Shown here in pieces: positions 15,584 to 23,058 of a DNA stretch of 64,000 nucleotides; positions within the stretch are counted from its first letter, which is position 1, and each line of letters opens with the position of its first letter. The translations under genes and the position numbers were made by a program. Location: the NCBI GenBank assembly GCA_013416795.1, contig RQSC01000026.1:322159-386158 (forward strand), written 5' to 3'. The DNA comes from Prasinococcaceae sp. CCMP 1430 (lineage: Eukaryota > Prasinodermophyta > Palmophyllophyceae > Prasinococcales > Prasinococcaceae). Below the pieces are notes generated by a model that saw only the letters and a list, made by a program, of their open reading frames with translations, was not told where the DNA came from and did not search any database.

Positions 15584-15930
15584 GTTCGCACCCTGCGCAC
15601 TTGCGCCACCGCATCGCCGGTATCGAAAGTAGAACTCTTCATCAGAATGCAAGCGACTGAAAAAAGAAAAAAGTAGGTCAAAATGCACGCAGCGTTCAAA
15701 AGAGCTGTTGAAAGGGGGCGATCTCGCGGCTGCGGCGCTGCCAGAGCGCGCGCGCGCGGCGGGCGCGCGCCGCGCCGCGGGGTGGGGGGTGCGGAGTGGT
15801 GCGGAGGCGGAGTTGTAGCGGGACGGTCTGCCTCCGCGTTCGAGGACGCGGGGGTGAAGAGGAGTGAGTGTGCGCGGGCGGGCGGTAGCGTGCGCGCGCG
15901 CGCGCTCGCGGCGGCGGCGGCGGCGGCAGC
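15584..15930. other. intergenic region before the golgin gene
   Basis: About 350 nt with an A-rich patch at 15660-15680 and a GGC-repeat run immediately before the golgin ATG. No gene or clear motif is seen. Confidence 0.4.
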
Positions 15931-18900
15931 ATGTGGAACAACATCGCGGGTGCGCTCGGAAGCGCCGCGACGATTGCGGCCGAGAAGGCGTCCGAGTATG
16001 CGGCTGTAGCCGCCCCGCCGCCCACGCAGCCGCCTCAGAAGCAGCAGCAGCAGGAGCCGCAGCAGCAGCCACACATCCACTCCGCGGCGCTCTCGGCCAC
16101 GGTCACGCCCCCGAATGCTGTTGCGGCTCCGGTCCCGCAGACCAGTGCTGCACCCGCTGGGTCTGACGAAGAGGACGACTGGTTGGATGAGCCGGTCGAG
16201 GATGTCATGGCATCGCAGCCACCACCGCCGCCGATGAGCAAGCCGCCTCCTGTAGGCCCGCCGCTGCCCGGTCCGGCCGGGCCGGCGCCGACACCCTACC
16301 AGCAGCTGAAACAGGCACAGCAGGCGCATGCCGCGTCCGATCGAGCACCCAACGGGAATGGTCATGCTCCTGCTGCCACCGGCGCCGCGGACGCGGCTCG
16401 CGTTGAGGCGCTACAGGATGAGCTGTCCGCTGCCGCTGCCGCGCACGAGAAACATACGGCCGAATTACAGGCGCACTATGCTGCGCAGATGGAGCGGCTC
16501 ATTGAGCAGCAATCTGCGGAGGCCGAGGCGGCCGAGGCGGCAGCTCAGACTGCGTCCCTCCTGCGCCAGCAGCTGCATGATGCCGAGATGAGGGAGAAGG
16601 AGCTCGAAGCGCGTTCTTCTCAAGCGGAGAGCGAAGCCAAAGAGCTCGGCGCGCGGGCAGAGACGCTTGAACATCAGGTGGCGCGCCTCGTCGAAGAGAT
16701 GAACAGCGCAGGTGGCAACACGAATGAGCAGCAGCAGGCCGCGTCGGCGGACGCGGCACAGCTGGAGGCGCTGCGTGTGGAGGCCGACGAGGCGCGCCGG
16801 CGGGCGGAAGTTGCCGTAGAGCAGGTCCAGGAAGTGCAGGAAAGCGTGCAGGAGCAGATTACATTTCTACGCGATGAGCTCACTGATGCGTCGGAGCGAG
16901 AATCCGCGCTCCGAGAAGAGCTGCAAGCGTGCAAGAGTGGGGCCATCGCGAGCTCCGAGTCGGCAGAGGCAGCGGCGCGGTCTGAAGCGCGGGCAGTCGA
17001 GGCGGAAGAGGCCCTGCAGCTCACACAACAGCAAAACGACCAGCTTCGCGAGGCTGTGCGCGCTGCTGTGGAGGCCGAGGACGGTGCCAAGCGAGCTGCG
17101 GCTGACGCCGACGAGCGTGCCCGAGCTGCCACAGAGGCGATGGCCGCCGCCGAGGAGCGTGCCAAGGCGGCTGTGGGGTCTGCAGCGATTGCACCTGCTG
17201 CTACCCCCAGCCCCGATGATGCTGCCGCGGCCATTGAGGCTGCTGCGCAGCTAGTCTCCGTCCAGGCCGAACTTGAGGCGGCCCGGGCTGAAGCCCTCGA
17301 AGCTGCCCAGACTTCGCAGGAGATGATCACCTTTTTGCGCGAGCAGCTGCAGGAGGCGTCTGAAAGGGAGACAGCATCTCAGGCATCCCAGACCGCCGCA
17401 GAGGTTGCGCTGGCGGAGGTGAACGAGCGGCTGGGCGGCGCTGAGACCGCCGCCGCCGACGCGCAGGAAGAAATGACCGCGTTGCGTGGCCAGGTGAGTG
17501 CACTTCACGAGCAGCTGCGCGCCGCGGCAGAACGTGAGGACGTCGCCGCAGAGGGTGTGGAGGCAGCCAGTCACGCGCAGGAGCATGCGCTGAAGGAGAT
17601 TGAAGGTCTCCGAGCGCAGGTGGCGAGCCTGCAGCAGCAGCTCGTTGCTGCGCAGGAGAGCATCGCAGAGAGCGATGCCCTTGCGACGGCAGCGGGCGAG
17701 AGCACAGCCGGGCGTGATATTGAAGTCGCTGCACTCACCGCTGCTCGGGCGGAGGCTGAAAGTATTGCTGCAGAGGCCGACCGCAGAGCGCAAGGTCTCG
17801 CGACGGACCTCGAAGCGGTCAGGCAGGAGCTCGAGCAGGTGCGCATGGCTGCTGAAGAGCAAGCACGGAAGGAGGCGGTGCAGCAACGCGAACGCGCTGC
17901 AGAGATCGGCGGCGCGAGCACGGGGCATGACAGCGCCCGAGTGGCTGAGCTCACGACGCAGCTGCAGGCGGCGGAATCGGAACGGGAGCGACTTGAGGCG
18001 GATCTTGAAACCCTGAAGGCGCAACTCATCGAAGTTTACGATCAGGAGGGCGAGCGCGCGGAGGCTGATGCCGCCGAGGTTGCCGCTCTCACAGAGTCTG
18101 TCGCTGCGGCCGAGGAGCGCGCAAAGGCGGCTGAGGCCCGCGCGACGGAGGCCGAGGTGCTCGCGTCGGCCGCGCAGGCCGGAGCGGGAGCGGCAGCCAC
18201 GGCAGCTGCGATGGGCAAGTTCTCGGGAGAGCGTGCAGAGATGCAAGCTGAGGTCGATGAGGCCAGGAGGGCGATGGCTGCAGCTGAGCGCCGTGCAGAT
18301 GCCGCCGAGGAGGAGGTCAATGGCCTCCAAGTCGCCCTTGGCGCGCTCACAGCCCAGAATGACGCTGGTGCTGCGGCCGTGGACGAGGCACGACTGGCTG
18401 TTCGCCGCTCGAAAGATCTCGAGCGTGAGATCGAGACCTTGCGGGCGTCGCAGGCTGCCCTCGAGCGCGACGCGGCGGAGTTTCAGCGCTCGATAGGCGC
18501 GGCCGGCGAGCGCCTGATGAAGGCGGAGAGAGACCGCGATGAGGCTCGGCGCGAGTGGGTGCGCACGTCTGCCGCGCTCGAACGTGCCGCAGCGCAGCTT
18601 TCGCGCGAAGCTTCGGGTGGCGGCGAGCACCTCGATCGGCGCATTGCCGGCAAGCTCCTGCTGACGTTCTTCGAACGAGGGCAGTCCGCAGCGGATCTCG
18701 ATATCATGTGCCGGGTGCTCGCCGTGCCGGAGGATGCTCGGTTGGCCATGCAGCGCGAGCGAGCAGCGCGAGAGCCGAGCGTCGTGCGCGCCGCCGCGAG
18801 CGTTGCAACGATGCCATTCAAGGCGCCGCTGGCGGTCGGTGGACTGGCGCTGACGGCGCTGGGCAACGTTGCCGCGATGACCGGCATGGTCGCGGACAAG

Positions 18901-19101
18901 TCCCCGCAGGAGCTGGGCCAGGAGGCACTCGAGTTGCAGAAGCGCGGCGAGCTCGTGGAGGCCTTCGTCAACTTCCTGGAGACTGCCGCCGAGGACGGTA
19001 GCGCCGATGCGCGGGGTGGCGGCGCAGCGGCGCTCGAGGCCCCGCCGGCTGCTCACCCGACCCTCCCACCGGCCGCGTGGGTCGACGCCCCGGATCCATA
19101 A
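15931..19101 (+). CDS. GRAB-domain golgin (GMAP-210/Rud3-like)
   Basis: This 1056-residue protein has golgin architecture. The start MWNNIAGALGSAATIAAEKA could form an amphipathic, membrane-curvature-sensing helix. A Pro/Gln-rich low-complexity region follows (residues about 30-140) with an acidic SDEEDDWLDEP patch, then about 750 residues of Ala/Glu-rich coiled coil. Near residues 898-943 the sequence LDRRIAGKLLLTFFERG...LDIMCRVLAV fits the GRAB (GRIP-related Arf-binding) domain, which in GMAP-210 and Rud3 binds ARF1 at the cis-Golgi. A hydrophobic stretch (FKAPLAVGGLALTALGNVAAM) follows the GRAB domain, unusual for this family. Predicted role: tethering vesicles at the Golgi. No intron is needed, and the start ATG is the first in frame. 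Confidence 0.75.
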   Translation: MWNNIAGALGSAATIAAEKASEYAAVAAPPPTQPPQKQQQQEPQQQPHIHSAALSATVTPPNAVAAPVPQTSAAPAGSDEEDDWLDEPVEDVMASQPPPPPMSKPPPVGPPLPGPAGPAPTPYQQLKQAQQAHAASDRAPNGNGHAPAATGAADAARVEALQDELSAAAAAHEKHTAELQAHYAAQMERLIEQQSAEAEAAEAAAQTASLLRQQLHDAEMREKELEARSSQAESEAKELGARAETLEHQVARLVEEMNSAGGNTNEQQQAASADAAQLEALRVEADEARRRAEVAVEQVQEVQESVQEQITFLRDELTDASERESALREELQACKSGAIASSESAEAAARSEARAVEAEEALQLTQQQNDQLREAVRAAVEAEDGAKRAAADADERARAATEAMAAAEERAKAAVGSAAIAPAATPSPDDAAAAIEAAAQLVSVQAELEAARAEALEAAQTSQEMITFLREQLQEASERETASQASQTAAEVALAEVNERLGGAETAAADAQEEMTALRGQVSALHEQLRAAAEREDVAAEGVEAASHAQEHALKEIEGLRAQVASLQQQLVAAQESIAESDALATAAGESTAGRDIEVAALTAARAEAESIAAEADRRAQGLATDLEAVRQELEQVRMAAEEQARKEAVQQRERAAEIGGASTGHDSARVAELTTQLQAAESERERLEADLETLKAQLIEVYDQEGERAEADAAEVAALTESVAAAEERAKAAEARATEAEVLASAAQAGAGAAATAAAMGKFSGERAEMQAEVDEARRAMAAAERRADAAEEEVNGLQVALGALTAQNDAGAAAVDEARLAVRRSKDLEREIETLRASQAALERDAAEFQRSIGAAGERLMKAERDRDEARREWVRTSAALERAAAQLSREASGGGEHLDRRIAGKLLLTFFERGQSAADLDIMCRVLAVPEDARLAMQRERAAREPSVVRAAASVATMPFKAPLAVGGLALTALGNVAAMTGMVADKSPQELGQEALELQKRGELVEAFVNFLETAAEDGSADARGGGAAALEAPPAAHPTLPPAAWVDAPDP

Positions 19102-20039: not shown

Positions 20040-21590
20040 TCAGAACGGAATGTCTTCTCCAGCGTCGTCGAAGTCACCGACGGGGTAGCCCCCGTCGCCG
20101 CTGTTGTAGCCGTAGTCGGACCCCATACCACCGCCCGCACCACCACCATAGCCCATGTCCGCACCGCTGCTGACTCCCTGGCCAGCGTTGCTGGGCGCAA
20201 AGTTGCCGGCGGCAACGCCCATGCCGGCGAATGCACCCGCGGCAGCGCCGGCAGGCATTGCGGGCTGCGCATCATACGGCGATGCGGGCGCGCGCGCGCC
20301 AGCGCCCGCACCACCATTGGCAGGAAGCGACGCAACACGCGCAGCGAGCTCTTCGGGCACCGAAGAGAGCCACAGCGCATCGCCATTCTCCTTGTGCTTG
20401 AAGTCGGGCGCCTTGGGGTTGCGCTTGCCCTCACGGTTGTCCCACCATGCGGATGGGCTATCCAGCAGGCTCTCCCACTTGGCCACGTCTGCGGGATTTG
20501 GCGCACGCCTTGCGCCGCCCGCGCCGCCTGCGGCGCCCATTGCCGGTGGCGGTAGCTCAGCCACGCGCGCGGCAATGCTGGGCGGCGCCGAGTTGAGCCA
20601 CAGCGCGTCGCCGCTCTCCTTGTGCTTGAAGTCGGGCGCCTTCGGATTGCGCTTGCCCTCGCGGTTGTCCCACCACGCCGACGGGTCGGCGAGCAGGCTG
20701 TCCCACATGGCCTGCTGCGCGAGCGGCACCGCGGATCCGCCTGCACCGCCCACCGGTGCGGGGGCCGCACTCGCGCCGGCGCTCGCGGCAGGCCTGGCGC
20801 CCATGCCCGCGCCCATGCCCGCACCCGCGCCCGGGCCCTGTGCCTGTTGCGCCGCGCCTGGCGCAGGTGGCGGTGGCAGCGTAGACGCCACACGCTCTAT
20901 GATGGCTTCGCTTGGAGGATACGCGCCGCCGAGCCACAGCGCATCGCCGCTGTCCTTGTGGACGAAGTCGGGCGCCTTGTCGCTCCTCTTCGTGAGACGG
21001 TTGTCCCAGAAGCTACTGTAGTCGGCGAAGAGCATCTCCCAGAGCTCGGCCTTCTTCACAGGTGCGCCAGATCGCGACACGCCACCGGCCGGGCTGAAGT
21101 CTTCCGAGCCCAGGCTCGCGGCACGGCCAAGCTCGCTCGCCACCACCTTGAACGCGCGGCGCTTTGGGCCATCCGGGTTCATTTTGTCCTCGGGCCAAAC
21201 GTCGACCTTGAGCCTGCCACGGATGGCGATGGCGTCTCCTGCGGACATATGCTCCGCGCACTGCTGCGCGACGGCGTCCCACATCTCTACGTTGTAGAAG
21301 TCGCGCCCCCGCCCAGCCCGCACCGAGATGCTCAGGTTCGCCACGAGCTTGCGCTGTCCCTGAAAGTCGAGCTCCTTCAGCGCCACGCCGCGCTCGGTGA
21401 TCTCTCCGATGAGGGCGACCGAGTTGGCGCGCTCGGGTGCGAACTCGACGAGCTCGGGCTCCGGCGTGGTGAGCGGCCCTCGGGAAGCTGCGCCGCCGGC
21501 AAAGTCGTGCTCGTCGCCCGCGCCCGTCGCCCAGTCACCCGCAACGGCGGCGGCCGCCACGCCGCGCGCGCCCGCGCTCGCCAGCCCCAC
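20040..21590 (-). CDS. organellar ssDNA-binding protein (OSB type, three PDF motifs, SSB-like tail)
   Basis: The protein combines an SSB-type OB fold (residues about 55-155: ANSVALIGEIT, GRDFYNVEMWD, GDAIAIRGRLKVDVW) with three PDF motifs (about 183-220, 295-332 and 371-408) of the form WxxLxxxPSxWWDNR...PDFKHK...LWL. In plants the PDF motif defines OSB proteins, which bind single-stranded organellar DNA and suppress illegitimate recombination. Motifs 2 and 3 are nearly identical and must be a recent duplication; the first is divergent (YSSFWDNR). A Gly/Met/Ala-rich linker follows, and the protein ends GDFDDAGEDIPF, the acidic tail of bacterial SSB that docks repair proteins. The frame begins at a non-ATG codon next to a GTGAGT, so the transit peptide is probably on an upstream exon not located here. 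Convergent with the gene ending at 19880. Confidence 0.85.
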   Translation of the reverse strand: MGLASAGARGVAAAAVAGDWATGAGDEHDFAGGAASRGPLTTPEPELVEFAPERANSVALIGEITERGVALKELDFQGQRKLVANLSISVRAGRGRDFYNVEMWDAVAQQCAEHMSAGDAIAIRGRLKVDVWPEDKMNPDGPKRRAFKVVASELGRAASLGSEDFSPAGGVSRSGAPVKKAELWEMLFADYSSFWDNRLTKRSDKAPDFVHKDSGDALWLGGAYPPSEAIIERVASTLPPPPAPGAAQQAQGPGAGAGMGAGMGARPAASAGASAAPAPVGGAGGSAVPLAQQAMWDSLLADPSAWWDNREGKRNPKAPDFKHKESGDALWLNSAPPSIAARVAELPPPAMGAAGGAGGARRAPNPADVAKWESLLDSPSAWWDNREGKRNPKAPDFKHKENGDALWLSSVPEELAARVASLPANGGAGAGARAPASPYDAQPAMPAGAAAGAFAGMGVAAGNFAPSNAGQGVSSGADMGYGGGAGGGMGSDYGYNSGDGGYPVGDFDDAGEDIPF

Positions 21591-23058
21591 TCACCCCGGT
21601 CTACTCAGCACGCTTCGCCATCGAATCCGGGTCCTCCCATGAATTCCCGGTCATACGGTCCTCATACCGGGGAATGACGTGCAACCCCGGGTCTGACGCG
21701 GCTGCCACAAAAGATGAAACGCGCTTCCGCGTGGAGACGCGATGGCTCGATCGATGGATCTTCCCAGGGCTGATCCGCCGCGCGTCGTCGCGATTCGCGG
21801 CGCGCGCCCCCCCGGTTTTCGGATCCGCGCCCCACCGCGTCGCGCGCACGGGCCGCGCGCGCGCGCGCGCGGGCGCGCGAGGGTTTGGGATGGATTCCGG
21901 GGTCCGATTGGAAGGCGCCGTTGGGGGGCTGCGTCCTCCGAACTCGAGGTTTGTTTGTTTGGCTGTGCAGGCGGTGCTTGTTGTGTGCGTGTACGGGTGT
22001 GCGTGCCACCGCGCGCGCCAAGCCCCGCCGTCCAGCGTTCAAACATGGCCGCGTCGGCCAGCTGGCGCGTGGCCGGGTCGGCAACGCTGGTGCCCACCAG
22101 ATAGGCGATGTCGGTTGCGCCACTGCCAATCCCCAGCGTTTGCCAGTCGACCACCCAACACTGCGCCCTGTCTGGTGCAAAGAGGAGGTTGTCGATGCGA
22201 AAATCGCCATGGGTCAGCGTGCGCGCCGCGGGTCGACGTTCGAGATAGGCTTCCAGCCGGTCGACGATGCTGTGACCCAGGTCGAGCACCTCTGCGGAGA
22301 GACTGCCGGCATAGCGGTCACGAAAGCCGGCATATAATGTCGGGAACATTGCCCGGACCATCGGCCGGGTGTCACGCTGGAGCCAGTCGATCCGGTCAAG
22401 CTCCGGCGAATTCCACAGGGCGGCGTGCAAGGCGACCGCCTCATCCACTGCGGCGGCGATGCTTGTTGCATCCGCCCCGGCCTCCGCCGAGCCCCCCCCG
22501 CCCTCACCCCGCCGCCGCCCGCACGCTGTCGCACGACGACGGCGGGAAACAACAACAACAAAAACGACCCGCAAGCGGCAAAAATAATGACCGCCCTCAC
22601 AAAAAAAAAAGACGCGCCGAACCCCGCATTTGATAGGTGTTTTGTTTTTGGCGGGGGCGAGCGCGGGCCGCGCGCGAGGCGCGCGCTGCCCGCGATTCTT
22701 CCAACTCGGAGAGCGGGGGGAGAGAGGGAACAGTCCGAAAGCAGAAAAAGAAAAATGCGCGATTAGACCGTAGGATCCATTTGGAGAGCCTGTTCGTTGA
22801 TCGAATTCTGGCGCGTAGACCGGGATGAGGACGCCCAGACCAGGGTCAGATGCGCGCGCGCGAGGTTCCCCGAACTCCACGCGGCCGTTGAATTTCGGAG
22901 CGCGCCCGACCGCGAGGCGCGGCGCGTGGGTGCCCCGAGCCCCGCGGCCGGCAGGACGCCACAACGCGCAGCGCACCGTCCCACCCGTGGGGCGGGGGCG
23001 GGGGTTGGGGTGAGGGAGGGGTGGGTGGGCTGGGAGTGGGGGTCTCGGTGGGCAAGTG
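21591..23058. other. long gene-poor region containing a bacterial-like fragment
   Basis: About 1.5 kb between the OSB and ankyrin genes. It includes CG-dinucleotide runs (21860-21880), A-rich patches (22550-22600 and 22745), and at 22020-22490 the phosphotransferase fragment listed separately. Outside that fragment I see no coding signal apart from the missing OSB 5' exon that may lie here. Confidence 0.5.
22020..22490 (-). pseudogene. truncated bacterial-type phosphotransferase (APH-like kinase) fragment
   Basis: About 150 consecutive codons match the C-lobe of the aminoglycoside-phosphotransferase-like kinase superfamily in its bacterial form. The catalytic loop THGDFRIDNLLF (HGDxxxxN) and metal-binding VVDWQTLGIGSGATDIAYL are intact, preceded by the helical stretch SIAAAVDEAVALHAALW and PMVRAMFPTLYAGFRDRY. 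There is no N-lobe (no ATP-binding Lys region), no start codon and no C-terminal helical end. The frame simply continues into CG-rich host-like sequence on both sides. Base composition inside is visibly less extreme than the flanks. Either an old or recent horizontal transfer that decayed, or a chimeric assembly insert. Superfamily assignment is firm; substrate cannot be inferred. Confidence 0.75.

Follow-up and report, generated by a model that had tools for sequence, protein, structure and literature searches.

A plant-type OSB protein of the alga Prasinococcaceae sp. CCMP 1430 ends in a bacterial SSB-type tip and has relatives of its PDF motif in phages

A 64,000-nucleotide stretch of the genome of the alga Prasinococcaceae sp. 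CCMP 1430 (assembly GCA_013416795.1, contig RQSC01000026.1, positions 322,159 to 386,158; hereafter the window) encodes on its minus strand a protein that is, as read from its sequence, an OSB by architecture and SSB-like by its tail. From N- to C-terminus the protein consists of an SSB-type OB domain, three PDF motifs, a Gly/Ala-rich linker and the end GDFDDAGEDIPF. The original prediction, that an OSB-type protein with three PDF motifs ends here in a bacterial SSB-type DIPF tail, is upheld by the frame, the tip and the OB-domain match. The protein is probably an OSB that has kept the bacterial docking tail, in which the OB domain, the three PDF motifs and a linker-presented tip would dock enzymes on organellar single-stranded DNA (ssDNA). 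The PDF motif had been taken for a plant organellar signature, which did not hold: it also occurs in phage proteins, and in zinc-ribbon form in phage proteins of the ERF, RecT and Rad52 families.

Gene structure and C-terminal tip

The minus strand of the window from 21590 to 20040 was translated as one uninterrupted frame of 516 amino acids (aa) followed by TGA, with the following features (window positions).

20040..21590, minus: OSB main (3') exon (frame translation, 516 aa plus TGA)
21129..21428, minus: SSB-type OB domain, aa 55-154 (PF00436, phrog_44 and tblastn to bacterial and phage SSBs)
20931..21056, minus: PDF motif 1, aa 179-220, KKAELWEMLFADYSSFWDNRLTKRSDKAPDFVHKDSGDALWL (sequence)
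20595..20711, minus: PDF motif 2, aa 294-332, AMWDSLLADPSAWWDNREGKRNPKAPDFKHKESGDALWL (54% identity to the phage L007 protein over 48 aa, E 4e-18)
20367..20480, minus: PDF motif 3, aa 371-408, KWESLLDSPSAWWDNREGKRNPKAPDFKHKENGDALWL (65% identity to the phage L007 protein over 40 aa; AlphaFold2 model with a predicted local distance difference test score, pLDDT, of 88)
20079..20318, minus: Gly/Ala-rich linker, probably disordered, aa 425-504 (composition; resembles the bacterial SSB linker)
20043..20078, minus: SSB-type C-terminal tip GDFDDAGEDIPF, aa 505-516 (sequence and genome word search)
20054-20043, minus: DIPF codons (sequence)
20042-20040, minus: stop codon TGA (sequence)
19963-19958, minus: AATAAA, a poly(A)-signal-like hexamer 77 nt past the stop (sequence)

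The tripeptide PDF itself is found at aa 207, 319 and 395, and the C-terminal end reads ...SDYGYNSGDGGYPVGDFDDAGEDIPF, then TGA (DNA GAAGACATTCCGTTCTGA). Because the frame contains no Met until aa 103, within the OB fold, at least one 5' exon is expected upstream, which may carry the targeting peptide. On the minus strand of the 64-kb window (67.5% GC) AATAAA occurs three times, and the position of the copy past the OSB stop fits a genuine 3' end of the gene.

An acidic tip of the hydrophobic-Pro-Phe type after a flexible linker, as in bacterial-type SSBs, is thus present at the end of this frame. With the composition of the OSB itself, the chance of DIPF at a given protein end was estimated as ~3e-6. 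The 15-base word for DIPF and stop (GAYATHCCNTTYTRR) was searched on both strands of the 24.5-Mb genome assembly and occurred once, at this OSB stop, while its reversed control word occurred three times; the tip is therefore specific to the OSB gene, and no other exon ends in this way. It is highly improbable that the tip is a gene-model artefact, with a transcript whose splicing leaves out the final 36 bases and a DIPF end arisen by chance. Such an artefact would fit the lower GC content at third codon positions in the last 12 codons (0.58, vs ~0.8 in the PDF region), and the stop was read from genomic sequence; against it stand the single frame that joins the OB domain and the stop, the AATAAA shortly beyond, the low chance expectation and the one genome-wide occurrence.

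Ancestry of the OB domain

The Pfam SSB model PF00436 matched aa 81-154 at 26.1 bits (cut-off 26), the PHROG SSB family phrog_44 matched at 1.4e-6, and nearly all matches listed in a tblastn search of plasmids and phages with the OB region were records annotated as SSB. Among the matches listed, the best were a Clostridia plasmid SSB (33%, E 2e-6) and a cyanobacterial SSB (34%, E 2e-6), and the closest, from a Crassaminicella (Clostridia) plasmid, itself ends in DDDDDIPF. By these matches the OB domain is SSB-derived. The protein stays below the cut-off of the bacterial SSB subfamily model TIGR00621, with 24.7 and 22.8 bits against 53.95, and its best NCBIfam model, PRK07459, gave 28 bits, far under the cut-off. 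An annealing domain of the kind that defines phage ERF, RecT and Rad52 proteins was not found by Pfam, which returned PF00436 only. Three features of an OSB are present: a central SSB-like OB domain, C-terminal PDF motifs of ~50 aa (three here, one to three in the family), and a green-lineage genome, as indicated on assembly contigs by a Whirly gene and by a RuBisCO small-subunit exon (contig C18; green type judged by eye).

The suggestion of an intermediate between cyanobacterial or alphaproteobacterial SSB and OSB was sustained as far as the combination goes, an OSB architecture with an SSB-derived OB domain and a canonical SSB-type tip. The choice between the two bacterial sources was not, since the similarity is too weak to separate them. 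No second SSB-family exon was found in the whole genome by PF00436 or TIGR00621 (to E 10) in an intron-blind search, which an intron-split SSB could escape, so, Whirly apart, the OSB may be the chief SSB-type protein of the organelles. Rad52 was not found in the algal genome by PF04098.

Phage relatives of the PDF motif

A profile of the algal PDF motifs led to five IMG/VR contigs of uncultured phages (L007-L011) that encode Cys-less PDF proteins; weak terminase matches were obtained on four of the five. The L007 protein (L007:4581-5192), which was found with profile-derived patterns without Cys, is 44-65% identical to the algal repeats over 40-54 aa (best E 4e-18). On all five contigs the PDF gene lies between genes for a RecB-like exonuclease and a DnaB-like helicase, the latter accompanied in L007 by a primase gene. 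These are the nearest PDF sequences found, and the likeness includes the helix before the core; they differ from the algal protein in having another N-terminal domain and no SSB-type tip. The AlphaFold2 model of the L007 protein had a pLDDT of 56.

A broader relationship was obtained with a DNA pattern for the PDF core and a following Cys, which gave 75 viral stretches in all, most of them encoding a four-Cys ribbon, CPxCGGxMWDNRxxKxNPKAPDFKCKDKxCxGxIW. In profile comparison the ribbon and the algal PDF motifs matched with 98.9% probability over 32 columns. As the ribbons had been fetched with a PDF-derived pattern, scoring was limited to the positions left free in the wider pattern in order to control for circularity; at these positions the fit to the algal repeats far exceeded that of within-sequence shuffles, and none of 2000 shuffles reached the score. 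Part of the ribbon set came from a stricter pattern that also fixes N, P and K, and the loci that were new in the wider scan likewise read NPKA, NPRA, SPKG and similar. An element [GA]..xW, absent from both patterns, was common to 32 of 39 distinct downstream stretches. On this evidence the PDF motif of the algal OSB is homologous to the phage module.

Other collections gave no further relatives. Among cultured phages (INPHARED) no PDF or ribbon protein was found; pattern matches in GTDB genome contigs were in no case confirmed by tblastn (queries A1 and A2), which with so short a query is weak evidence of absence. Neither the OSB nor the PDF/ribbon profile had a real relative in PDB sequence searches, and Foldseek of the PDF model against PDB and BFVD gave no match with E <1, so no fold was assigned.

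A single PDF motif (FFDNRASKSNERAPDFKQKGTGEALWV) was also seen in RFC1 of the same algal genome (L006:2176-4500; G000:C67, ~235,200-237,500; Pfam BRCT, AAA and RFC1 lid domains). It lies in the N-terminal part, after a PIP-box-like start and ahead of the BRCT domain, and represents a putative nuclear use of the OSB module.

Acidic tips in phage annealing proteins

The ribbon proteins resemble the algal OSB at their C-termini as well. An acidic [I/L/M/F/T]PF tip was present in 34 of 56 distinct ribbon-protein ends and in 0 of 1071 other open reading frames of at least 150 aa from the same loci, a ratio that is indicative, since the 1071 frames include many non-genic ones and the ribbon proteins share ancestry. 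In a thinned set of 30 ribbon proteins, the tip was counted by eye in 16, and the carriers were assigned to the annealing families ERF (9 of 30), Rad52 (2) and RecT (1). Tips seen in ERF/RecT/Rad52-type ribbon proteins (L029-L103, L104) include DDDIPF, DEIPF, EDLPF and DPDMPF; a RecT carrier on a Gemmatirosa plasmid ends in DDDIPF.

The occurrence of ribbon and acidic tip together in phage annealing proteins suggests that module and tip are jointly used elsewhere, and thus that a PDF-type module with an SSB-type tip is a recurrent prokaryotic design. It follows that the OSB tail could have come with the module and not from an SSB ancestor; either may be the source of the algal tip. We tentatively propose, as a history that is possible though somewhat doubtful, that the ssDNA-binding PDF motif derives from a phage recombination or replication cassette, as a form of the WDNR-PDFKC ribbon that has lost its Cys, and that its fusion to an endosymbiont-derived SSB took place early in the history of green plants. 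The alga would then keep the original combination of ribbon-type module and SSB-type tip, the tip possibly having arrived with the module.

Proposed function and candidate partners

For the algal OSB we infer organellar location, ssDNA binding, docking and the identity of the partners, as follows. The SSB-derived OB domain would serve oligomerisation and possibly a weak ssDNA contact, and the three PDF modules would bind ssDNA. The flexible Gly-rich linker would hold out the acidic tip (EDIPF-COOH). Once the OSB coats organellar ssDNA, the terminal Phe, the carboxylate and the acidic residues of the tip would dock enzymes that have an SSB-Ct pocket, with roles in repair, replication or recombination as with bacterial SSB. 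In E. coli, the tip docks through a hydrophobic pocket (Phe), a basic lip (carboxylate) and a basic ridge (acidic residues); according to one study, RecG binding requires the tip and needs nothing more, the linker sequence is unimportant and the terminal Phe is needed (PMC10164576). Arabidopsis OSB1 restrains mitochondrial recombination and works with RNase H1 against R-loops (PMC8330923), which makes recombination and R-loop enzymes natural partner candidates; two RNase H loci are present in the algal genome.

RecG, which had been named as a candidate docking partner, was rejected as a partner through an E. coli-type pocket. The algal RecG (L014) was aligned with phmmer to a 693-aa RecG structure (9wm0_A, 1.3e-78), which was taken as E. 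coli RecG from its length and residue numbering. The pocket residues R467, R474 and R614 correspond to P, A and E in the algal protein, the first two less certainly than R614 owing to local gaps in the alignment. Reversing the charge of any of these arginines destabilises the E. coli RecG-tip complex (PMC10164576); because they are not kept, docking of RecG by this pocket is unlikely. A search with an approximate E. coli recG DNA word gave no match.

The algal RecG gene (G000:C73:266684-268660, minus strand) also encodes, in one frame, an N-terminal DEDDh-type exonuclease domain (PF00929, 5e-21), an exonuclease-RecG fusion.

Several points weigh against a docking tail. The replaced RecG residues are one; no partner with a verified pocket was found, the RecG pocket being the one compared. 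Arabidopsis OSB2 (AtOSB2) does not interact with organellar PolI, according to a review (PMC6963530). The intron-blindness of the genome search counts here as well, since an SSB gene split by introns could have been overlooked.

Two other readings of the tail draw on the loss of the RecG pocket, the sole mapped pocket that could be compared. It is unlikely that the tail is self-regulatory, folding back on basic PDF or OB surfaces, where it would compete with ssDNA and tune affinity or exchange, and serving no partner enzyme of its own. The charges would suit such a role, with 9 acidic and 1 basic residue in the last 92 aa (aa 425-516) and conserved basic residues in the PDF cores (DNR..K.NPKAPDFK); mere acidity, however, needs no precise IPF end, and docking in E. 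coli requires the terminal Phe (PMC10164576). Nor is it likely that the tail is an evolutionary relic of an SSB or phage-module ancestor, now out of use. OSB1 has been called distinct from bacterium-type SSB (PMC8330923), in keeping with a relic, but an EDIPF end that is exact, follows a long low-complexity linker and occurs nowhere else in the genome would be hard to keep without selection in an old lineage. A retained docking tail is the reading adopted here.

Neighbouring frames

Upstream of the OSB exon and on the same strand (22041-22479, minus), the window contains a piece of ~145 aa of an APH/EcKL-type kinase (LTHGDFRIDNLLF; PF01636, 2.6e-10), which is single-copy in the genome and seems truncated at both ends. 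On the plus strand (15889-19101), a 1070-aa coiled-coil frame has a compact segment at the C-terminus (KLLLTFFERGQSAADLDIMCRVLAVPEDARLAMQ), reminiscent of a golgin GRIP domain; the Pfam search yielded a weak tropomyosin match only.

Relation to known systems and significance

The plant OSB family (Arabidopsis OSB1-4) shares the green lineage with the algal protein, as given in two reviews (PMC4166229, PMC6963530). The algal protein ends in an SSB-type tip and was compared with the plant OSBs by architecture; the passages on the PDF motif in these reviews make no mention of OSB C-terminal tips. Bacterial SSB (E. coli SSB, PF00436/TIGR00621) is alike in its OB domain, Gly-rich linker and acidic DIPF tip, and the algal protein differs by the three PDF modules between OB domain and linker. 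The phage ERF, RecT and Rad52 proteins with a WDNR-PDFKC ribbon share a ribbon homologous to the PDF core, a frequent acidic [I/L/M/F/T]PF end and a role in ssDNA recombination; they differ in having an annealing domain in place of the OB domain, four Cys against a Cys-less PDF motif, and a single copy. Plant mitochondrial SSB1 and SSB2 are bacterial-type SSBs that are not known to carry PDF motifs. Organellar SSB function would be common to them and the algal protein, and SSB1 has an acidic C-terminus according to a review (PMC6963530); proteins of this type were not found in the algal genome with PF00436 and TIGR00621.

In the literature, OSBs figure as plant-specific proteins that keep organelle genomes stable, and the PDF motif is said to be confined to green plants; its phage connection is the part likeliest to surprise a specialist. 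If the tip works, the alga could be used to test whether organellar recombination control first ran via bacterial-type tip docking, and which partners stayed. The phage relatives point to a candidate origin of the PDF motif and, on the biochemical side, predict an ssDNA module that derives from the ribbon of annealing proteins and is coupled to an SSB-mimic tip. A phage origin of the motif would parallel that of other phage-derived parts of organelle replication, such as Twinkle and the RNA polymerase.
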